This document shows positions 41,442-56,673 of a stretch of DNA of 64,000 nucleotides, in pieces (position 1 is the stretch's first letter; every line of letters begins with the position of its first letter). A model generated the notes under the pieces. It was not told where the DNA came from. It saw only the letters and a program-made list of their open reading frames with translations, and did no database searches. The DNA comes from a candidate division FCPU426 bacterium (GTDB lineage Bacteria; Oederibacteriota; Muellerivitia; Muellerivitales; Muellerivitaceae). Location: the NCBI GenBank assembly GCA_027452205.1, contig DAIDGV010000003.1:265399-329398 (forward strand), given 5' to 3'. Position numbers and translations under genes: made by a program.

Positions 41442-42506
41442 TCACCTTTTCTTTTTCAATAAAGCTTGGACTTCGGGCCTTTTTAAGAACTGGTCAAAGA
41501 ACAATTGACTGAATTTCATCCCGCTTTTTTCATCCAAATGTCGGCCATCCAAAGTGAACATCCCGTCCGGATCCACCTCGATCAACGGCAAACCCAATGC
41601 CCGAGCGGTCAGGTCCACGCGCGTATAATGCCCTTCCGCCAATGAGATCATGATCCTTTTTTCAGGGTCTTTCACCCATTTATCCAAATGATTCAATTCA
41701 TCCGTGCTATAGGGCACACTGGTCAAGATGATCTGGATGCCCCTCTCCCGCATATCCTTAACGAACTGAAGAGCGTTGTTCAGTTCATAAGGTTCCAGTA
41801 ATTCCTCCCCAACGGCATGACGCGCGACCGGCACCAAATTCTGCTCAAAGTTCTCGACGTCTAAGCATCCCGTTTTGACCGAACGATACATCACCACCGG
41901 CACGCTGCCGTATATTTTGCCCAATCCGAACCGGGGGAAAATTCGGTGCAATATCGGTTTTAAAAACCAGGTCATTTCGCTTTCCTTCACTTTAAGGAAC
42001 GCCCGAAGATAGCCTAATTGGACGGTCTCATCACGGTAACCCGAATCGATATTCCCAAAAAAATGATTTTCATCGATGATAATGATCGAGGGCGAGAGAT
42101 GATAATGATCTATTAAATACTCATCCATGGCCCAATCCGGCCCTAAACACAAACCTAAAAAAGCGATGCCCGTTTTATTCGCGGCCTTATGGACCGCTTT
42201 ATTACGAAAAGCGAAAAAAGGATGGGAACTACCCAGGATCAACACATCGGCCTTTTTGGCCCTTTTCATCAACTCGCCGATATCGTAGTACATTGAATAA
42301 AGGTCGTAAGCCTCATCGCTAAAAGCTTCCATGACCATGTAGGGATCATCAGTGCAAGGCGTCGGCATTTTCCCATTCCAAGCTTCACCTGAGAAACGAC
42401 TCGTTCCCAACAGGCCGGCCACGATACAAATCAAAAGGGTCAACCCAAAAGCCAGCATGGCTTTCCCAAGGGGCCTCGGATCAGAATTGGAAATAAAGGA
42501 ACGCAT
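41442..42506 (-). CDS. SGNH/DltD-like protein paired with MBOAT (copy 1)
   Basis: A 354-residue protein with one N-terminal membrane helix (LAFGLTLLICIVAGLLG). It carries ADVLILGSSHPFFAFRN near residue 95 (SGNH block I serine position) and DGRHLDEKSGMKFS near the end (the Asp/His block). Such proteins partner MBOAT acyltransferases in wall or exopolysaccharide acylation. A longer start at 42518 exists. I chose 42506 because the overlap with the MBOAT gene is then 26 nt, exactly as in copy 2, and the N-termini align (SFIS). Confidence 0.75.
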   Translation of the reverse strand: MRSFISNSDPRPLGKAMLAFGLTLLICIVAGLLGTSRFSGEAWNGKMPTPCTDDPYMVMEAFSDEAYDLYSMYYDIGELMKRAKKADVLILGSSHPFFAFRNKAVHKAANKTGIAFLGLCLGPDWAMDEYLIDHYHLSPSIIIIDENHFFGNIDSGYRDETVQLGYLRAFLKVKESEMTWFLKPILHRIFPRFGLGKIYGSVPVVMYRSVKTGCLDVENFEQNLVPVARHAVGEELLEPYELNNALQFVKDMRERGIQIILTSVPYSTDELNHLDKWVKDPEKRIMISLAEGHYTRVDLTARALGLPLIEVDPDGMFTLDGRHLDEKSGMKFSQLFFDQFLKRPEVQALLKKKR

Positions 42507-43896
42507 TGGCTTTTCCATAAAGGGTCAACACTCCATAAAGCATTAGTGCGCAAACAAAACCCTTTTCCATGACCGTCGGGACAGGCATCCAACCCCGTTC
42601 CACTAAAAAAGCCCGGCCATGCAATACAAGGACGGGCAGAACAAACCAAAGACCCGGCAAGACCGCCAGGGCGTTCGCGGGGTCATACCCGCCGTTGAAC
42701 AAATTATTGAATATCCGGAACGCTTGCGCCAAAGTTTCCGAACGAAAAAAGATCCAACCGATCAGCACTGTTCCCTGAACGATAAAGAACCAAAACAATT
42801 TCGCCAAAACCGATCTGGTCTCAAAAAAGCCATTGGTCCTCAAGACCCTCTCAAAAACTAAAGCGATCCCGTGGATCATTCCCCAGAAAACAAAGGTCAA
42901 AGCCGCCCCATGCCACAAGCCCGCCAAGAGCATGGTGACCATCAAGGCTGAAAAGACTTTTAATTGCGATCCGCGATTGCCGCCCAACGGGATATAGAGA
43001 TAATCCCTGATCCAAGTCGACAAGGTGATGTGCCACCGGGTCCAAAACTCGCGGAAAGAGCCGGCAATATAGGGATTATTAAAATTGAGGGGTAGTTTAA
43101 AACCTAAAAGATAGGCCGTTCCCATGGCGATCTGCGAATAGCCCAAAAAGTCGGAAAAGATCTGGCAAGAAAAAAGGACCGTCAAGCTCATCGGGACAAT
43201 GCCGGCCATATTGTCGGCGGCGCTATATTTCCAGAATTTATTGACGTAATCGCCGATATTGTCAGCCACGACCATTTTGAAGAACAGGCCGGAAATAATT
43301 AAATAAAACCCCTCCAAATACACCCTTAACCGCGCCCTTCTTTTTCGATCGAACTGATATAGCAATTCCTTGGCCCGCACGATCGGTCCGGAAATCAAAT
43401 GCGTAAAAAAACAAACAAAGAGCAGGAACCGCCAATAGCTTTTTTCAGGCTCTATCTTTTTTCTATATATATCGATCGTGTAACTCATGCTTTGAAAGGT
43501 GAAGAAGGAAATGCCGATCGGCAAAACGATATCCCATTTTGGCGGGACAAACCGAACATGGACCAAACTCAACGAGAGCCCCGTGAAGTTCAATATAAAA
43601 CCCAGATACTTGAAGGCGACCAACAGTCCTAAATTGGCGACCAAAGACAGCACCAAATAAAACTTTCGAGAAGCGACCGATTCACTCCGAGCTATTTCAT
43701 TCCCAACAAAATAATCAATGACCGTCGTAAAAAATAACAAAAGCAGGTACCAGGGAACATAGGACCCATAAAAGATCAGGCTCGCCACCAGCAACATCGC
43801 TAAATAGGATTTCTCGTTTTTTTGGCGCCCCAAGGTAAATCGGCCCGCCAGAACGAGGAGAAAGAAAAAAAGAAATGAAAAGGATATAAAGCTCAT
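42481..43896 (-). CDS. MBOAT-family O-acyltransferase (copy 1)
   Basis: A 471-residue AlgI/DltB-like membrane enzyme with about ten transmembrane segments. It includes ISFFTFQSMSYTIDIYRKKI, FSDFLGYSQIAMGTAYLLGF, NPYIAGSFREFWTRWHITLS and LAGLWHGAALTFVFWGMIHG, which contains the invariant MBOAT histidine. It moves acyl groups across the membrane to an extracellular polymer. Its end overlaps the SGNH-like gene. Clear paralogue of the protein at 47445 (same length, same motifs). Confidence 0.92.
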   Translation of the reverse strand: MSFISFSFLFFFLLVLAGRFTLGRQKNEKSYLAMLLVASLIFYGSYVPWYLLLLFFTTVIDYFVGNEIARSESVASRKFYLVLSLVANLGLLVAFKYLGFILNFTGLSLSLVHVRFVPPKWDIVLPIGISFFTFQSMSYTIDIYRKKIEPEKSYWRFLLFVCFFTHLISGPIVRAKELLYQFDRKRRARLRVYLEGFYLIISGLFFKMVVADNIGDYVNKFWKYSAADNMAGIVPMSLTVLFSCQIFSDFLGYSQIAMGTAYLLGFKLPLNFNNPYIAGSFREFWTRWHITLSTWIRDYLYIPLGGNRGSQLKVFSALMVTMLLAGLWHGAALTFVFWGMIHGIALVFERVLRTNGFFETRSVLAKLFWFFIVQGTVLIGWIFFRSETLAQAFRIFNNLFNGGYDPANALAVLPGLWFVLPVLVLHGRAFLVERGWMPVPTVMEKGFVCALMLYGVLTLYGKANAFLYFQF

Positions 43897-46468: not shown

Positions 46469-47470
46469 TCACTTGCGCGAATTCCTAAGTTTTCGAATCT
46501 CTGGTAATTTAAAGAAAACTTCAAAAAAAGAATCAGAGAACTTTTCGGCGCTTTCCGGGGTCAAATGCATTCCATCGAACGTTTCAAGACCATTCACGGT
46601 CGGCAGAACGCATCCAACACCCAATCGCCTTGCTTCTTCTTTCACGACCGCCGGGTTTTCGCCATAAGGAACGAACGTCAAGATCACCTCGGTCCCCCGT
46701 TTGCGCATTACATTCACAAAATCTTTCGCCCGGCTCAAATAAAGGGGATCAAGCAGCCGCGGTTTTGGTTTGATCCGGATCGGATAATGTAACCCTGACA
46801 TGTTCTCGCTAAACAAGAAACCATTTTCCGGGGACAAAAACTCTTTGTTTTCTTTTCCTTGGTTCGGTTTGAAGAATAGGAACCTAGGAATCAAACTTCT
46901 CACACAATAGTTCAAGACCCAACGGCCATAGTTCGAATAGATTTTGGACCAGCTATGCCACCAAGACCCGCTCATCGCCTCTTTTTGGAAAGGCCATAAT
47001 TTTGGATTAAAAAAATCGTCTTCGTTGACGATCAAAAACTTCGGGTGAAGATCGTTTCGGAGAAGGATATCTTCCGAAAAAGCGGCGTTATCACCGGGCC
47101 CGGACAAGCCGAAGAACGTCAACCCATTTTCTTTTTCAGCTTTTTGAACGGCGTCCTCTCGAAAAGCGAAAAGTGGTCTTGAGTTCCCTAGGATCAATAC
47201 ATCGGCCTGCCTAGCCCGGGCGATCATGGGACCAATGTCATAGTAAAGCGCCTCGGTGACATCGAAGGGCCCTTCGGCCTCAAACAATGAGAAGGTGTCC
47301 CAATTACGGTAATTGAACGGCAACGGTTCTTGCCCGACCTCCTGCGGCAGGCAAGAAGCCAGCCACTGCCCCCCCGCCAACAATAAAAACATCCACAGGA
47401 ACCAAAGGCCCCAAGTCTTGGCCAATTGGCGGTTTCGGGATGTCTTAAAAATGGAAATAAATGAAAGCAC
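46469..47470 (-). CDS. SGNH/DltD-like protein paired with MBOAT (copy 2)
   Basis: A 333-residue relative of the protein at 41442, with an N-terminal helix (LWFLWMFLLLAGGQWLA), ADVLILGNSRPLFAFRED (GNS instead of GSS) and a late DGMHLTPESAEKFSDS block. The GTG at 47470 is preferred over an ATG at 47500: it gives a 26-nt overlap with the MBOAT gene and the aligned N-terminus LSFIS, matching copy 1. It is likely the acyl-transfer or esterase partner of the adjacent MBOAT. Confidence 0.74.
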   Translation of the reverse strand: MLSFISIFKTSRNRQLAKTWGLWFLWMFLLLAGGQWLASCLPQEVGQEPLPFNYRNWDTFSLFEAEGPFDVTEALYYDIGPMIARARQADVLILGNSRPLFAFREDAVQKAEKENGLTFFGLSGPGDNAAFSEDILLRNDLHPKFLIVNEDDFFNPKLWPFQKEAMSGSWWHSWSKIYSNYGRWVLNYCVRSLIPRFLFFKPNQGKENKEFLSPENGFLFSENMSGLHYPIRIKPKPRLLDPLYLSRAKDFVNVMRKRGTEVILTFVPYGENPAVVKEEARRLGVGCVLPTVNGLETFDGMHLTPESAEKFSDSFFEVFFKLPEIRKLRNSRK

Positions 47471-48860
47471 TGTTTTTCCCCGAAATTGAAAGGATCGCAT
47501 ATAGCATCAAAGCGCTCCAAAAAACCTTTTCCAACCACTCCGGTTTTCTAAACCATTGCCTCTCCATCAAAAACCCCCGCAAATGCATCAGCACGATCGG
47601 TGCCGTAAAGGCCAGGCCAGGCACTAGCTTCATCACAATGTCCCGGTCCCACTTTCCGTTGAAGCAAGCCTGGATAAGATCGACCGCTTGTTCTGCGCTG
47701 TCCGCCCTAAAGTAAATCCACCCGAGCAAAACAACCCCTTGAACCACCCCGAACCAAAAGACCTTTACCAAAAAGGGTTTGTCAGTCGTCTTTTGAAAAC
47801 CTAAGACACGCTCAAGGACCAAGGCCGTCCCATGAAGAACTCCCCAAATGACAAAGGTCCAAGCCGCTCCATGCCAAAGACCGGCGATCGTCATCACCAG
47901 GAACAAGTTGAAATAAAAACGCCATTCAGGAACCCTATTTCCACCGATCGACACATAAAAATAATCTCGGATCCAGGTCGATAACGTGATGTGCCACCTT
48001 GTCCAGAAATCCCGGAAAGAAGTGGCCAGATAGGGAAAATTAAAGTTCAGGGGCAAACGGAAGCCCAACAAATAAGCCGAGCCCCTGGCAATGCTGGTAT
48101 AGCCCTCGAAATCCGCGAATATCTGGCACCCAAAAAAGAAAGCCAGCATCCATGCACCCAGCGAGGGGCACACCGCGATAAAATCGTCGCGCCAGTAGTT
48201 ATTGACGTATTCCGCCAAATTATCCGCTACGACACATTTCAAGAAAAAACCCCTCACGATCAAATAAAGCCCTTCCGTCACAACAGCGGGCCAAGCCTTT
48301 CTTTTCCTGTCGAATTGGTAGACCAACTCTCTGGCCCGAACAATGGGTCCCGACACCAAATGAGTGAAAAAGCTTACGAATAGCAAAAAACGCCAATAAC
48401 GCTTTTCGGGCCGGATCACGCCCCGGTAGACATCGATGGTGTAACTCATACTTTGAAAGGTGAAAAATGATATTCCCAAAGGCAGGGCAATGTTCAATTG
48501 GGTCGTTTGAAAGATCGGATGGTCAAAAATATACGAAAGCACTTTGACCGTATCGACAAAGAACTGGGAATATTTATAAAAAGCCAATATCCCTAAATTC
48601 GAAACGATCGATATCGCCAAATAGAACCGTTTCGCGTTCAGATTACCCGCTTCGTCTATTTTACGTCCCACCACGAAGTCGATCAGGGTGATCCCCAGCA
48701 GTAAAAAAATAAATCGCGGGATGTAAGAAACATAAAAAATCAAACTGGCCAAAAGCAAAAACAAAAGATAGCCATTTTTGTTGGCGGTCGTGTTAAAGAT
48801 CAGCCTCGTCAAGAAAACAAAAAAGAGCAGGACGAGGTAAGAAATGGAAATAAAACTCAT
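47445..48860 (-). CDS. MBOAT-family O-acyltransferase (copy 2)
   Basis: A 471-residue paralogue of the protein at 42481. It has ISFFTFQSMSYTIDVYRGVI, FADFEGYTSIARGSAYLLGF, TSFRDFWTRWHITLSTWIRD and IAGLWHGAAWTFVIWGVLHG with the conserved histidine. The two copies have identical length but differ at many residues, so the duplication is old, or each copy was acquired separately. It is followed by its SGNH-like partner with a 26-nt overlap. Confidence 0.92.
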   Translation of the reverse strand: MSFISISYLVLLFFVFLTRLIFNTTANKNGYLLFLLLASLIFYVSYIPRFIFLLLGITLIDFVVGRKIDEAGNLNAKRFYLAISIVSNLGILAFYKYSQFFVDTVKVLSYIFDHPIFQTTQLNIALPLGISFFTFQSMSYTIDVYRGVIRPEKRYWRFLLFVSFFTHLVSGPIVRARELVYQFDRKRKAWPAVVTEGLYLIVRGFFLKCVVADNLAEYVNNYWRDDFIAVCPSLGAWMLAFFFGCQIFADFEGYTSIARGSAYLLGFRLPLNFNFPYLATSFRDFWTRWHITLSTWIRDYFYVSIGGNRVPEWRFYFNLFLVMTIAGLWHGAAWTFVIWGVLHGTALVLERVLGFQKTTDKPFLVKVFWFGVVQGVVLLGWIYFRADSAEQAVDLIQACFNGKWDRDIVMKLVPGLAFTAPIVLMHLRGFLMERQWFRKPEWLEKVFWSALMLYAILSISGKNSAFIYFHF

Positions 48861-49037: not shown

Positions 49038-50078
49038 TCATGGGTAGCTGATCTGGGTCAAATTGGACGTAGTGCTGTCATAGGTATACCCAAACGAACC
49101 CAAGGGGTTCGTCACGTTGACCAACTCGTCATTGGTATAACCATAGCTTTCGCTATTACTGTCGATGGCACGATTGCTCGTACGCCCATCCGCATCATAA
49201 GTGTATGTAATGTTCGCTGTGGTCGAACCAACTGGACTTACCACCGTTTCCACATGCCCACCTCCAACGGAACCGATGGGGTAATAGCTGTAACTGGTCG
49301 TGCCTGTCCCGTCTTCCATGCTCGTCAGCCGGGGCAAGACCGGGTCATAGCCGAAACCCACGTTCGCCGTCCCCGTCACCGGCCCGCTGTAGGCCACATC
49401 CGTCAATTCATCGTCCAGGTCATAGGTATAGCTCGTCGTTTCGTTCCGCGCGTCCCTCACGGACAACAACTGGCTTCCGTTCGGGTCGTAGGTGTAATTG
49501 ACCGTCGAACTGTCCGGGTAGATCTTTTGCGTCACCCGGCCCTCAAAGTCCCTATGCCACTGGGTCTGGTTCCCCTTCGGGTCCGTCATGCTCGCCAAAG
49601 ACCCGCATGAACACCACCCGAACTGGGTCGTCTGCGTCTTCGGGTCCGTCACGCTGGTCATGTGCCTGTCCGCGTCGTAGGTATAGGTCGTATTCCGTGT
49701 TTGACGGTCCGTATATCCCGTCAGGTCCAAGTTGGTGTAATCGAAGGATTCATGCGTTCCGTCCGGATAATTGACGGTCTTCACCCGGTCCAGGTTGTCA
49801 TAGGTGTAGCTCAGGGTGCCGTGCGCCGTGTCCGTCTTGGTTTTGACCCGTCCCACGTTGTCATAGGTATAGCTCACCGTGCTTCCCGGCTGTGGGGGGA
49901 CCACCGACGTCAAATAACCGTTGCCGTCGTAGTTGTAATGGGTCGTCTCGCCCATTGGGGCCGAAACGCTGGTAACCTCCCCGGCCGCGTTGTAGCTGTA
50001 GTGCCAGGTCTGCCCCGACGCGTCCGTGTAGCTCAAGGGATCGTGCGCGTTGTCGTAGGCCGTGTCAAAACACCCCAA
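49038..50078 (-). pseudogene. RHS/YD-repeat protein fragment, truncated at both ends
   Basis: 346 codons of YD repeats (SYTYDNLDRVKTVNYPDG, TYTYDADRHMTSVTDP, FGYDPVLPRLTSMEDGTG) without signal peptide, RHS core or C-terminal toxin. The 5' end starts abruptly: a TAA lies four codons upstream of the first possible start and RHS similarity begins at FDTAYDNAHDP. The 3' end stops at LTQISYP, a point where YD repeats normally continue (compare NETLPNGASVTYSYD in the RHS protein at 51309). It is the middle of a broken RHS gene and lies on the downstream side of the toxin-bearing RHS gene, so the order is scrambled. Confidence 0.8.
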
Positions 50079-50091
50079 ATTCCCTTATTTG

Positions 50092-50353
50092 AATTGTTTG
50101 CATTGCAAACAATTACTCCTGGCCGGGCCCATCTTGCGTCCAATTTCGGCCAGAGTCTGGAAAGAATTGGACGTGAGAGTAGCTAGTTTTACCAACGGTT
50201 GGTAAAAACCGGGGGGTGTCTAGGGGGACGTTTTTGAAAATTTTTCAAAATAAGGTCTTGGGGGGTGGGCTTACGAAACTTTCGTAAACCCAGGGGCTAG
50301 GTTTTACCAACGGTTGGTAAAACCGGGGTTCAAAAGTTACGGCCCGTAACTTT
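50092..50353. repeat. Cluster of six odd-length perfect palindromes
   Basis: Six palindromes, each with one central base: 50092-50114 (arm AATTGTTTGCA), 50187-50207 (arm TTTTACCAAC), 50232-50250 (arm TTTTGAAAA), 50271-50287 (arm TTACGAAA), 50300-50324 (arm GGTTTTACCAAC, same core as the second) and 50333-50353 (arm AAAGTTACGG). Interleaved are CTGGCCG/CGGCCAG (50119-50153) and CGTCCAATT/AATTGGACG (50137-50173). One-base centres cannot be tight RNA loops, so operator sites or cruciform-forming DNA are likelier. Confidence 0.85.
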
Positions 50354-50371
50354 CCAGGTCAAAATCTTCAT

Positions 50372-50422
50372 AAAACCCTTATTTTGAACGCCCGGACTCC
50401 GGACTCAAAAAATAAGGGTTTT
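50372..50422. repeat. 14-bp perfect inverted repeat
   Basis: AAAACCCTTATTTT (50372-50385) and AAAATAAGGGTTTT (50409-50422) flank a 23-nt loop holding a direct repeat (CCGGACT twice). The string CCCTTATTTTGAA in the left arm recurs as CCCTTATTTGAA at 50082-50093, so the palindrome cluster is bracketed by related sequence. It may act as a terminator for the small gene at 50524. Confidence 0.75.
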
Positions 50423-50523
50423 TGAGGCCCCATGATCTAGGCCCCTGGGCACCACCCCAAGGGGTCTAGCCTTATCTTGTTTCACCTGTCAAAGAGCGAA
50501 CCAACCAGCCTTATCGAGACACC

Positions 50524-53144: not shown

Positions 53145-53444
53145 TTAGCGAAGTTCCGTCACCAGTTCAGGGTGGGATTTCAAAACACGGATAAGCTTAG
53201 CCGCTGACCCTCTGGGTGTTCTAATCCCCTGCTCCCAATGCCGAATAGCGCTAGGGCTTTCCCCAACCACCTGGGCAAAAACCTCTTGGGTTAAATGTAG
53301 TTCTTTACGGATTTTTTGAACTTCCTGGGCCGTAGCGGGCTTGGCTCGGTAGGTTACCTTCATGCCAGGCAATTTCTTGCCTTTCATAATCTCGCCCATT
53401 TGATTGACGCTCTTGAGGAGGTCATTAAAGTGTTCTTTTTTCAT
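53145..53444 (-). CDS. HigA-like XRE antitoxin
   Basis: A 99-residue protein with a C-terminal helix-turn-helix (VQKIRKELHLTQEVFAQVVG, then SPSAIRHWEQG). The layout, with an N-terminal tail and HTH near residues 42-95, matches HigA2/NadS-type antitoxins. Its ATG overlaps the toxin stop by 4 nt, so toxin precedes antitoxin as in higBA loci. It should neutralise the toxin and repress the operon. Confidence 0.85.
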   Translation of the reverse strand: MKKEHFNDLLKSVNQMGEIMKGKKLPGMKVTYRAKPATAQEVQKIRKELHLTQEVFAQVVGESPSAIRHWEQGIRTPRGSAAKLIRVLKSHPELVTELR

Positions 53445-53779
53445 TTCTTATCCTTCCCTAAAGCCTTTTTCAATTCCACGGCCAATATCTTCTCTTGTTG
53501 GGGTGTCAAATCACCTGCCACCCTTTTATCCAGCAAGAACAACAAATACACGTCCGCTGGTACGTCATGGTAGAACCAGACTCGGTATCCACCACTCTTT
53601 CCTGAAGCTCTCTGCGTTGGTGCTACCCGCAGTTTCCTCATCCCACCCTTTATTAGTGAACCGCCTTCAGGGTTGCGGATGATTTCCTCTTCAATCGCCT
53701 CTAAAAACCCTTCTTCTCCTGTTTTGTCCAGGAGCTGACTAAATAGAGGTGTTTGAATGAACTTATATAGCCGTTTCAA
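53441..53779 (-). CDS. RelE/HigB-2-like toxin
   Basis: A 112-residue protein beginning (from a TTG) KRLYKFIQTPLFSQLL, with the RelE-fold core MRKLRVAPTQRASGKSGGYR, VWFYHD and VYLLFLLDKRVAGDLTP. The K/R-rich strand and final helix fit HigB-2 ribosome-dependent mRNA interferases. A GTG at 53815 opens the frame earlier, inside the recombinase stop, but the TTG has AAAGG upstream and gives the usual family length. It is the first gene of a toxin-antitoxin pair downstream of two recombinases. Confidence 0.83.
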   Translation of the reverse strand: MKRLYKFIQTPLFSQLLDKTGEEGFLEAIEEEIIRNPEGGSLIKGGMRKLRVAPTQRASGKSGGYRVWFYHDVPADVYLLFLLDKRVAGDLTPQQEKILAVELKKALGKDKK

Positions 53780-53793
53780 TTTCAGCCTTTCTT

Positions 53794-54855
53794 TCAAGCT
53801 ACTACATTGTAGCACTCGTCCCCTGGGTCTTCCAGTGTTCTTTCAACCTCTGGAACAGGGGCTAAATCAGGTTTTTCGGCAACAGCTTGCTTAGCGACCG
53901 TCTTCTTCCCTGGCAAAGGCTCCTTCTCCCTAGGGTGGCAACGGTGGTGCGCTTCTTTTAGGTCCTCAATGCTGACCGATAGATAGGGCGTAAGACTCTC
54001 CATGCTGGCGTGTCCAAGTAGCTCCATCAGGTGTCTTGGGTGCATCTGTTCCTTACGACTTTTGCCCCGCAGACAGTGGGTGGCACAGGTGGCCCGTAAG
54101 CTGTGCGGTGTAATGTGCTTCTCGATTCCCGCCTTCTGGACGTGGCGTTTAATGCGGTCCCCTAGGGTGTTCCTGGCTATCCTTCTTCCTAATGCGCTTA
54201 AAAACAGGTAGTCAACTGTGGGGTCTTTTACCAACCTGGGGCGTACTTCGTCCAAGTAGTAGCGCAGGTACTTGATAGCCACCTTGCCAATAGGAATAAC
54301 TCGGTCTTTGCCCCCTTTGCCGTGGTTAATCCTCATTACCCCAGCGCTCAGGTCGATGTCTGTGACTCTAAGGTCCTGTAATTCTGCCTTGCGTAGTGCG
54401 CTCGAATAGAACACTTCCAGGATGACCCTATCTCTAAACCCAATGACCGTAGTCTTGTCGGGTGCCGCTAGTAGCTTCTTGACCTCAGGCCCACTCAAGA
54501 TGGTACGGGGTAGCCTCTTTGGTTCGATGGCGTAGGACACGTCCTTACTAGGGTCTTCGTCGATGACCTTCTCTTCCGCTAGGAACTTGAGGAACTGCTT
54601 AGCAACAATGAGCTGGTTATTCCTATAAGAAACGCTGTTCTGCTTGCCGTGCTTGTTCAGCTGGTCATACAGGAACTTCTGATAGCTCCTGACAACAGCA
54701 AAGGTAATACCCTTGGGGTCTTGCACCCCCTGGTTACGTAGATAGTTCAGGAACGGCTTCATCCGCCACCCGTGGCTTTCTATTGTCCCAGGGGAATAGT
54801 TCAAAACCCGCAGGTTCTGGAAATATCGTTCTTTAAGCTCTTCTAATACGTCCAT
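53794..54855 (-). CDS. Tyrosine recombinase (second of tandem pair)
   Basis: A 353-residue integrase. An N-terminal SAM-like core-binding domain (SPGTIESHGWRMKPFLNYL) precedes a catalytic domain with the R of SSALRKAELQDL, the K of HGKGGKDRVIP, HSLRATCATHCL, GHASME and the tyrosine of LTPYLSVS. After it comes DLKEAHHRCHPREKE, shared with the upstream recombinase, and a charged tail of about 50 residues. It overlaps the upstream recombinase gene by 23 nt. Likely integrates or excises the element together with its partner. Confidence 0.9.
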   Translation of the reverse strand: MDVLEELKERYFQNLRVLNYSPGTIESHGWRMKPFLNYLRNQGVQDPKGITFAVVRSYQKFLYDQLNKHGKQNSVSYRNNQLIVAKQFLKFLAEEKVIDEDPSKDVSYAIEPKRLPRTILSGPEVKKLLAAPDKTTVIGFRDRVILEVFYSSALRKAELQDLRVTDIDLSAGVMRINHGKGGKDRVIPIGKVAIKYLRYYLDEVRPRLVKDPTVDYLFLSALGRRIARNTLGDRIKRHVQKAGIEKHITPHSLRATCATHCLRGKSRKEQMHPRHLMELLGHASMESLTPYLSVSIEDLKEAHHRCHPREKEPLPGKKTVAKQAVAEKPDLAPVPEVERTLEDPGDECYNVVA

Positions 54856-55834
54856 CGGCTGCCTCTTTAAAGTTCACAATCTTGGGGGAAACATCTTCTG
54901 CGTCCTCGGTTTTTTCTTCATATCTGGGATGGCACTTCTTCAGGGCCTCTGTTAAGTCCACGCCTGACAACGTGAGATATCGAATTGTGCTCTGATTTTG
55001 ACTATGACCGAGTAGCTCTTTGACAGCCAAAAAGTCAGCTCCGTTGCGAATCATTTGAACCCCAACCGTACGCCTAAAAGAGTGCGGACTGACCTGCTTT
55101 TCAATACCCACCTTCTTCCTGAGGTAGCGAACCATGAAGATGATGTCCTGCTTAACCACAGGTAGGCCTCGACGGTTAAGCCAAAGACGGTCCGACACTG
55201 GCCCACCTTTCTTTGTCTGCTTCTCAGCCAGCAAAGGCCTTACCCTTTCCAGGTAGGTGTTGATAAAGAAGATGGCGTGTTGGCCTAGCGGTACTACCCT
55301 GTCCTTTCTTCCCTTTCCATCTCGTATAAACAGAAACCCTCTAGCTAGGTCCAAGTCACGTATTTCTAACGAGGCCGCTTCGGATACCCGAATCCCACAG
55401 GAATAAAAGGTTTCAAGTAGTGCTTTGTCTCGAATTCCCAATGGGGTTCGCAGGTCTGGAGCCCCTAACATCTTTGTTACCTCTTCCTGGGTTAAGGGCT
55501 GTAGGGGCAGTATGTTCTTCGTGTTGGGTGCCTTCAGTACCGTTGAAAAGTCGTAGAGGATATCCCCGTTCTTGACTAGGTAGCCGAAGAAGCGCTTCAA
55601 GACGTTGACGTTAGCGACAACGTAGTGGACAGAGAACTTAGGGTTCTGGCTTAGCACGTCGTAGTAATCCTTTAGCACTTGCCCATCGACCTTGGTGATA
55701 CTGGCAATCCCTTTCGCCTTGAGCCAGTCCAAAAACATCCTGACGCACCGCTGATACTTGGCAATTGATAGCGGGCTATAGTTATGGACTTCCATGTCCT
55801 TCAGGAAACCATCGTGTTCAGTTTGAAAACTCAT
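54833..55834 (-). CDS. Tyrosine recombinase (first of tandem pair)
   Basis: A 333-residue integrase with core-binding domain (SPLSIAKYQRCVRMFLDWL) and catalytic residues in YSCGIRVSEAASLEI (R), DGKGRKDRVVPLG (K), SPHSFRRTVGVQMI (H-x-x-R), LLGHSQNQST (H) and TIRYLTLS (Y). The C-terminus carries DLTEALKKCHPRYEE, homologous to the tail of its partner, so the two are ancient duplicates. Paired overlapping recombinases occur in Tn554-like and RIT-like elements. Here only two are adjacent. Confidence 0.9.
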   Translation of the reverse strand: MSFQTEHDGFLKDMEVHNYSPLSIAKYQRCVRMFLDWLKAKGIASITKVDGQVLKDYYDVLSQNPKFSVHYVVANVNVLKRFFGYLVKNGDILYDFSTVLKAPNTKNILPLQPLTQEEVTKMLGAPDLRTPLGIRDKALLETFYSCGIRVSEAASLEIRDLDLARGFLFIRDGKGRKDRVVPLGQHAIFFINTYLERVRPLLAEKQTKKGGPVSDRLWLNRRGLPVVKQDIIFMVRYLRKKVGIEKQVSPHSFRRTVGVQMIRNGADFLAVKELLGHSQNQSTIRYLTLSGVDLTEALKKCHPRYEEKTEDAEDVSPKIVNFKEAADGRIRRA

Positions 55835-55899
55835 TTTTAAAATCCTCCAAAGGTTTTTAGGTCAAATTTCATGAGATCAGTTTTGCAAGTGATCTCAAG

Positions 55900-56673
55900 T
55901 CATTTCTTTACGTCGTGTTCATTCAAAGACTGGGCTAGGTTTTTAGCGTTAATCTCAGCCTGAATAGCGGTCTCAGCCACCTGCACATAAAGCGGGTCAA
56001 TCTCACATCCAGCGAAACTCCGCCCGTGACGGACAGCGCAGATAGCGGTGGTGCCAGAACCTAAGAAACAATCCCCTACCAAATCGCCTGGGTTAGAGGT
56101 ACCCAAGATGAAACGCTCAACCATTTCCTCAGGGACCTGACATGGGTGTTTTCGCTTCTGCTTGCTGGTGTTCTTCACAGGCTCTAAGTCAATCCAGTCA
56201 TAACTGGCTGGTTTGAGGCCAGCCTCTATACGTTTCTTTATGCGATGGTCAGTTGGGTTGCGGTATTCGGTCTGAAAAGCTTCCTGATTGATGAGGGGCT
56301 TACCTTTGGAGAACCACAACCAAGCCCTGGAAGCTTTGCGAAGTGGGGTCCCTCTCACGTGGGCGTGTGGAGTCCAATTAATCCATTCAAAACGGTCTAG
56401 GAAATCCACTTCAGCCCAGATACGTGCCGCTGTCTCAGGGTAATTCAGGTAGAAAACAGAGCCGCCCGGCTTCAACAATCGCTGGCAGTGGGACAAAACG
56501 AGGAATTGCTCTATTAGGTACTGGTGCTGAGGCTTCGTGTCCTGATATTGGTTGTACTTGTAGCCAACGTTATAAGGTGGGTCGAGGATGATGAGCTGGA
56601 AGCTTTCTTCTTTTTGTGAAGTCAGCCAAGTCATACAATCTGCATTCTCTAAATTGATACCGTGGTCCTGCAT
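55900..56673 (-). CDS. Orphan beta-class DNA methyltransferase
   Basis: A 257-residue methyltransferase, N6-adenine or N4-cytosine type. The catalytic motif IV (ILDPPYNVGYKYNQ) lies near residue 30 and the SAM motif I (GDCFLGSGTTAICAV) near 205. Motif IV before motif I is the beta arrangement. No restriction endonuclease is adjacent; the Mrr-like gene 4 kb away is not in the same operon. It probably marks element DNA or protects it from host restriction. Target site not predictable. Confidence 0.88.
   Translation of the reverse strand: MQDHGINLENADCMTWLTSQKEESFQLIILDPPYNVGYKYNQYQDTKPQHQYLIEQFLVLSHCQRLLKPGGSVFYLNYPETAARIWAEVDFLDRFEWINWTPHAHVRGTPLRKASRAWLWFSKGKPLINQEAFQTEYRNPTDHRIKKRIEAGLKPASYDWIDLEPVKNTSKQKRKHPCQVPEEMVERFILGTSNPGDLVGDCFLGSGTTAICAVRHGRSFAGCEIDPLYVQVAETAIQAEINAKNLAQSLNEHDVKK

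Follow-up and report, generated by a model that had tools for sequence, protein, structure and literature searches.

The window analyzed here, a 64-kb stretch of DNA on contig C3 of a candidate division FCPU426 genome (G000; 2.89 Mb in 28 contigs), carries a dense array of palindromes adjoining an RHS-repeat gene fragment (49038–50078, minus strand). Two further regions of the minus strand frame this locus. To the left, a duplicated gene pair encodes an MBOAT-like membrane O-acyltransferase and a partner of ~350 aa (41442–43896 and 46469–48860; two diverged copies, named by eye). To the right lies a likely mobile element (53145–56673) beside the RHS genes; it contains two neighboring tyrosine recombinase genes that adjoin a toxin-antitoxin-like pair (HTH antitoxin) and a DNA methylase.

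The initial annotation described six perfect palindromes with the format arm-one base-arm and arms of 8 to 12 bp, and we recovered all six (arms of 11, 10, 9, 8, 12, and 10 bp from left to right). The first (AATTGTTTGCA-T-TGCAAACAATT, 50092–50114) forms a unit on the minus strand together with the conserved string CAAATAAGGGAATTTGGGG (“type A”, 50075–50120). Two palindromes are of type B, one with arms of 10 bp (TTTTACCAAC-G-GTTGGTAAAA, 50187–50207) and the other with arms of 12 bp (GGTTTTACCAAC-G-GTTGGTAAAACC, 50300–50324), and a type B variant has arms of 8 bp (TTACGAAA-C-TTTCGTAA, 50271–50287). The others are a palindrome with arms of 9 bp that continues into AAATAAGG (TTTTGAAAA-T-TTTTCAAAA, 50232–50250) and the type C palindrome with arms of 10 bp (AAAGTTACGG-C-CCGTAACTTT, 50333–50353). 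Two imperfect odd inverted repeats accompany this set: one of 74% around GCGTCCAATT...AATTGGACG (50132–50178), a type D motif that also occurs in other arrays, and one of 80% at 50372–50422 that is nested (50372–50396/50398–50422). The core said to occur twice, TTTTACCAACGGTTGGTAAAA, does so, and the related strings said to bracket the set are present as well (CCCTTATTTGAA-like at 50083 and 50377, inverted at 50410). The type A unit reads GVIVCNANNSNKGIWGV, comparable to RGLIVRNTNNSNKEIRGIS in the ParB-like gene of locus L102, while the right-hand unit (50362–50427, plus strand) reads QNLHKTLILNARTPDSKNKGF, comparable to ENLQKTLKNDDYDVITKNKGFSITE of the ParB-like gene on contig C9.

That chance would not suffice to explain such a density was borne out when the 331 bp were shuffled 20,000 times with dinucleotides preserved. 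The real sequence has six odd palindromes whose arms measure 8 bp or more; the shuffled maximum was two, seen in 8 of the 20,000; none reached three, and chance palindromes were therefore ruled out. Even palindromes with arms of at least 6 bp were absent from the 331 bp. Among palindromes with arms of 8 bp or more, the remainder of the window contained a single odd one and no even one. In 373 kb sampled from the genome there were nine odd palindromes of this kind (~1 per 40 kb), near the 6.0 obtained in simulated sequence, so that the palindrome density of the array is a local property.

Several origins were considered for the array and dismissed. Rfam gave no match up to E = 1 in the window between 49000 and 51500, which argues against a known RNA family, and in IMG/VR neither the array palindrome nor the ParB-like protein profile was found, which argues against a viral origin. 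A transposon or element end was rejected because the bracketing strings recur within arrays and correspond to ends of ParB-segment units. Of four exact pattern matches in named genomes, those in a Pedobacter, a Burkholderiales and a Magasanikbacteria comprised one palindrome each and were taken as chance, and the one in FCPU426 falls in a moeA-like gene. Possibly by chance, TTTTACCAACCGTTGGTAAAA occurs within a moeA-like gene of the relative G002 (L040:6368–6388), where it reads FYQPLVK; a copy with one mismatch lies at G007:C127:2165–2185.

Related arrays and the symmetry of their palindromes

A scan of the genome and its relatives, as proposed in the initial annotation, showed that the array in the window is not unique, since the same genome has five more. 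BLAST with the window array located arrays on contigs C2, C10, C23, and C26, and a second array on C23 was recognized on reading the contig. Similar units were found in three relatives of the same family (G001, G002, and G004), none being detected outside the family among the 59 genomes searched. In several family members, no full array could be recovered. Units occur in either orientation, singly or in tandem, and the type B palindrome is present in eight copies over four arrays of G000, two of the copies having one mismatch. Tandem palindromes of the sequence TTTTGAGAnTCTCAAAA, with a period of ~52 bp, were noted at L160:2437–2830 and L105:850–1180; those of L160 lie within a decayed ParB-like gene of G002 in which the turn segment is expanded.

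The array in the window has a diverged duplicate on C2 (74% over 441 bp): the entire array block (50060–50505) is homologous, at 74% identity, to C2:36643–37030, which is likewise flanked directly by RHS-like sequence. The type B variant is missing from C2. Flanks of the palindromes are largely identical between the two arrays, yet three palindromes have different arms that are nevertheless symmetric.

We aligned 20 type A units. Of the cells in this alignment, 95.9% were paired and 43 had changed on both sides; the covariation score was 0.566, compared to 0.138 in shuffles and at most 0.12 when slid. Among 120 inner-arm pairs, 114 were Watson-Crick and only three were G-T, which means that RNA wobble intermediates are almost missing. 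Finally, in 50 of the 65 distinct palindromes that we collected from arrays and genes (77%; 25% expected by chance), the innermost pair, next to the single central base, was complementary.

Inner stems that co-vary almost perfectly would be expected of hairpins in RNA or single-stranded DNA, such as a regulatory RNA or an attC-like or REP/RAYT-like element. Against this, the centre is odd throughout the window array and the symmetry reaches the innermost pair, which cannot form in a hairpin; in REP/RAYT or attC-like elements this pair would be unconstrained. In addition, G-U pairs are nearly absent, Rfam is without a match, and orientation relative to the nearby open reading frames that we read is not constant. 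We therefore give hairpins of any of these kinds, whether in RNA or in a single DNA strand, hardly any credence. The symmetry of the innermost pair and the near absence of G-U pairs also count against the cruciforms suggested in the initial annotation. Judged from the sequence, the strict odd centre, the symmetry of the innermost pair and the scarcity of G-U pairs favor a double-stranded site, read by a two-fold symmetric protein or dimer.

DNA shared between arrays and ParB-like genes

Four genes of relatives have, inside their reading frames, the unit that is best conserved among the arrays, in which CAAATAAGGGAATTTGGGG follows a palindrome. Within these ParB-like genes it has a constant position and reads LIVxxxxNNSNKGIWGIS. 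A perfect palindrome with a 3-nt centre and arms of 7 nt or longer was present in 15 of 17 family genes. In these it lies between the helix that follows the helix-turn-helix and the one after, and its end is mostly 0–5 nt ahead of the (S/K)NKG codons. The exceptions were G001:C109, whose palindrome has one mismatch, and G003:C329, which has none. The palindrome differs from one divergent gene to another and the encoded residues vary along with it. None of nine other ParB genes (three canonical chromosomal, two divergent relatives, and four plasmid genes) had a palindrome at this place.

The strongest single result for the link between genes and arrays is a reverse search, in which the segments of the five ParB-like genes of G000 were used as BLAST queries against its whole 2.89-Mb genome. 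The five genes themselves ranked first, then the arrays, then background. Array matches were obtained at C23:124549 (68 nt, 90%, E = 3e-19), C26:1899 (65 nt, 89%, E = 1e-17), and C23:127228 (E = 1e-15), with weaker ones at C23:126919, C2:36719, and C10:98923. The window's own unit was not significant in this search (E = 0.15); its type A unit was matched at E = 1e-8 by ParB-like gene segments of the relatives. Arrays and genes share DNA, and their palindromes co-vary symmetrically.

The genes and arrays also share individual palindromes. For four of the five gene palindromes of G000 there was an exact full- or near-full-arm partner (arms of 7–9) in the arrays of the same genome, which had been found without use of the genes: TTTACGCA in the C3 gene and the C10 array, CTTGTCTCC in the C24 gene and both C23 arrays, and TGATTAC in the closely paralogous genes of C9 and C23 and in the C26 array. 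About 0.01 such partners would be expected by chance (5 × 39/4^7). Two more gene-array pairs were seen in G002, their sites having been found with gene segments as bait, whereas in G001 and G004 no gene palindrome had a full exact array partner in its own genome. We saw no promoter-proximal or upstream copies near the ParB-like genes; the other exact copies lie far off in arrays.

The homology between genes and arrays spans 65–68 bp, which is more than a bare binding site needs, and we count this against a reading of the palindromes as sites. It could instead be speculated that they belong to a mobile element, MITE-like and in frame as in Rickettsia palindromic elements, which entered ParB-like genes and spread intergenically, its palindromes serving mobility and not binding. 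Unit limits common to the gene and two arrays (68 bp), outer inverted repeats (AAAACCCTTA...TAAGGGTTTT), the solitary and tandem units in both orientations, and the decayed G002 gene with its turn segment expanded into palindromes would all be consistent with such an element. However, the in-gene units are confined to one homologous position of one family, and the palindrome codons of the C3 gene align with the palindrome-free homologue L168 (IYRRLVG for LYASCVK, by eye), which indicates that there was no insertion in that gene. Neither a transposase nor a target duplication was seen, and a mobile element leaves the symmetric change of the inner arms within conserved flanks unexplained. We consider this explanation unlikely. 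Rickettsia palindromic elements and MITEs resemble the present case in placing palindromic DNA within reading frames, but they are inserted in many unrelated genes, while the FCPU426 palindromes occupy one position of one gene family.

Another possibility is that the arrays are a silent reservoir of cassettes, exchanging palindromes with the ParB-like genes by recombination and so diversifying both the site and the protein segment. Consistent with such exchange, three palindromes differ symmetrically between the arrays of C3 and C2 while the blocks around them are conserved, and genes and arrays have segments with exact arms in common. No recombinase is linked to them, however, and no gene was caught before and after an exchange; this possibility seems to us quite remote. 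More generally, the role in recombination or replication, or as an element junction, that the initial annotation had entertained was not found, although the units have been duplicated and shuffled.

The main weakness for the window itself is that none of its palindromes has a matching ParB-like gene in the G000 assembly; the exact partners of the gene palindromes sit in other arrays. Similarly, we found no gene that carries the commonest array palindrome (TTTTACCAACnGTTGGTAAAA, eight copies). The missing cognate genes, the broken reading frames and the incomplete recovery of arrays across the family might mean that the arrays are relics without a present function, left over from dead ParB-like genes and from sites since lost. 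This is improbable, as perfect palindromes with changed arms persist in non-coding DNA, where neutral decay would be expected to break the symmetry first.

ParB-like proteins as candidate readers

A profile of 12 family proteins matched Spo0J in the PDB (1vz0, E = 1.2e-27), and Noc (7ol9) and KorB (8qa8) were matched as well. The domain order, a ParB_N domain of CTPase fold followed by a ParB helix-turn-helix, is that of the ParB/Spo0J/Noc family. Scores with PF02195 lay above or below the cut-off depending on the member, those with TIGR00180 reached E = 5e-13 yet remained under the curated cut-off, and among the NCBIfam models some paralogues scored best with Noc. Eleven of the 12 proteins have a hydrophobic segment of membrane-spanning length, and in all eleven there is one C-terminal to the DNA-binding domain. 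G000 encodes five of these paralogues besides one canonical ParB. No obvious parA was present among the open reading frames that we read near the ParB-like genes of G000 and its relatives. The residues that set the specificity of ParB and Noc fall within residues 162–207 of Caulobacter ParB (PMC7383237), a region that by alignment includes the turn encoded by the palindrome.

Because the array is made of segments that are found inside ParB-like genes, its palindromes are most likely landing sites for ParB relatives. On sequence grounds, we think it rather probable that the array is a cluster of candidate double-stranded sites of the parS or KorB-operator type, with an odd dyad, for paralogous ParB-like proteins, most of which are predicted to be membrane-anchored. 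Two suggestions of the initial annotation survive here in altered form. Of its options, sites for dimeric proteins together with a hub of several different sites are the best supported, although the proposed proteins are ParB-like and not classical promoter repressors.

In the mechanism that we propose, every paralogue would recognize a palindrome of its own, of which its gene would carry a copy in the stretch that encodes the turn after the helix-turn-helix. The intergenic arrays would have arisen from these gene segments by duplication and rearrangement and would combine different palindromes, such that one array locus could load several ParB-like proteins. A C-terminal hydrophobic segment would anchor most of the paralogues in the membrane, and the loaded proteins may then silence the chromosomal region or dock it at the membrane. 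We infer binding and one-to-one specificity, as well as membrane docking or silencing, the last two from the anatomy of the proteins and the precedents of Noc and KorB. A further, rather doubtful extension is a coupled reader-address system, in which the DNA that encodes a segment of the DNA-binding domain would double as the address of the protein, the arrays would be a library of addresses, and reader and address could diversify or be exchanged together.

Known systems and other in-gene palindromes

The core of the KorB operator OB is an odd 13-bp palindrome; unlike the FCPU426 family, KorB is one protein with one operator type and no family of paralogues. Noc has an amphipathic helix and one conserved site (NBS), in contrast to the predicted transmembrane segment and divergent sites of the FCPU426 paralogues. 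KorB of RK2 is a ParB-family clamp that loads at dispersed OB operators and silences at a distance (PMC11790492), and Noc is a ParB-family protein that binds both the membrane and DNA sites (PMC8429893).

Further likenesses were found on plasmids. A Streptomyces linear plasmid, identified by protein similarity only, has TGATTAC-n3-GTAATCA eight times within 5 kb around parAB, including two copies inside parB and one inside parA, and another 50 kb of the same plasmid has none. Its arms, TGATTAC/GTAATCA, are identical to those of two G000 genes (C9 and C23). Other plasmids have the same design with different arms: GATAAC and TATTAC, where parB contains copies, and GTTGCT on a Pseudomonas plasmid, between parA and parB. 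On SCP1, two ParBs bind inverted repeats of 13 and 19 bp as parS without crosstalk (PMC13245405), and the parS of SCP2 is embedded in the ParT coding sequence (PMC12260392). Together, the plasmid loci and the published SCP1 and SCP2 systems show that odd, variable, in-gene sites are known behavior of ParB-like systems. The statement in the initial annotation that no equivalent had been described was therefore too strong, as both odd-length and in-gene parS are known on Streptomyces plasmids (PMC13245405, PMC12260392).

The parS of Streptomyces linear plasmids (SCP1 ParB1/ParB2; the parAB locus of NZ_CP109367.1) resembles the candidate FCPU426 sites in its odd inverted repeats, its several copies around the operon, its orthogonal specificities within one cell and, in the plasmids that we analyzed, its copies inside parB. 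These systems differ in being plasmid-borne, beside parA, and of one specificity per cluster, whereas the FCPU426 arrays are on chromosomal contigs, no parA was seen beside the genes, and we infer many specificities per cluster. The position of the in-gene site differs as well: in the FCPU426 genes it is in the DNA-binding domain and not in a C-terminal linker. ParT-parS of SCP2 also has its site inside the gene of its own DNA-binding protein, but ParT is without a CTPase domain, the site is 18 bp long, and there is no mixed array (PMC12260392). In a limited literature search we found no description of many specificities mixed in one chromosomal array, nor of a site within the DNA-binding-domain segment of its own presumed reader.

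If the reading as ParB-type sites is true, this lineage would have several separately addressed ParB-like proteins per chromosome and clusters where their addresses meet, a natural multiplex form of a system that normally comprises one protein and one site. Its natural protein-site pairs could serve for studying the evolution of ParB specificity and possibly as orthogonal pairs for DNA labelling. In-gene sites of this kind would also be discoverable from symmetry alone.

ORF6N (KilA-N-like) genes are perhaps a second DNA-binding family with the in-gene palindrome trait. Their palindromes, TTTGAxxTCxCAAnTTGxGAxxTCAAA, are likewise odd and perfect, with arms that are conserved on the outside and variable on the inside, and encode LRSQFVTSN (L191:1390–2013, reverse complement; L194:1656–1724; L192:1661–1689). 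No ORF6N gene was found in G000; in G002:C43, G002:C46, and G004:C60 such genes adjoin ParB-like genes or arrays. One ParB-like gene of G000 nevertheless has a solitary palindrome of the ORF6N type, TTTGAGGTCACAAATTGTGACCTCAAA, at its 3' end (contig C10; L151, 3885–3911, reverse complement).
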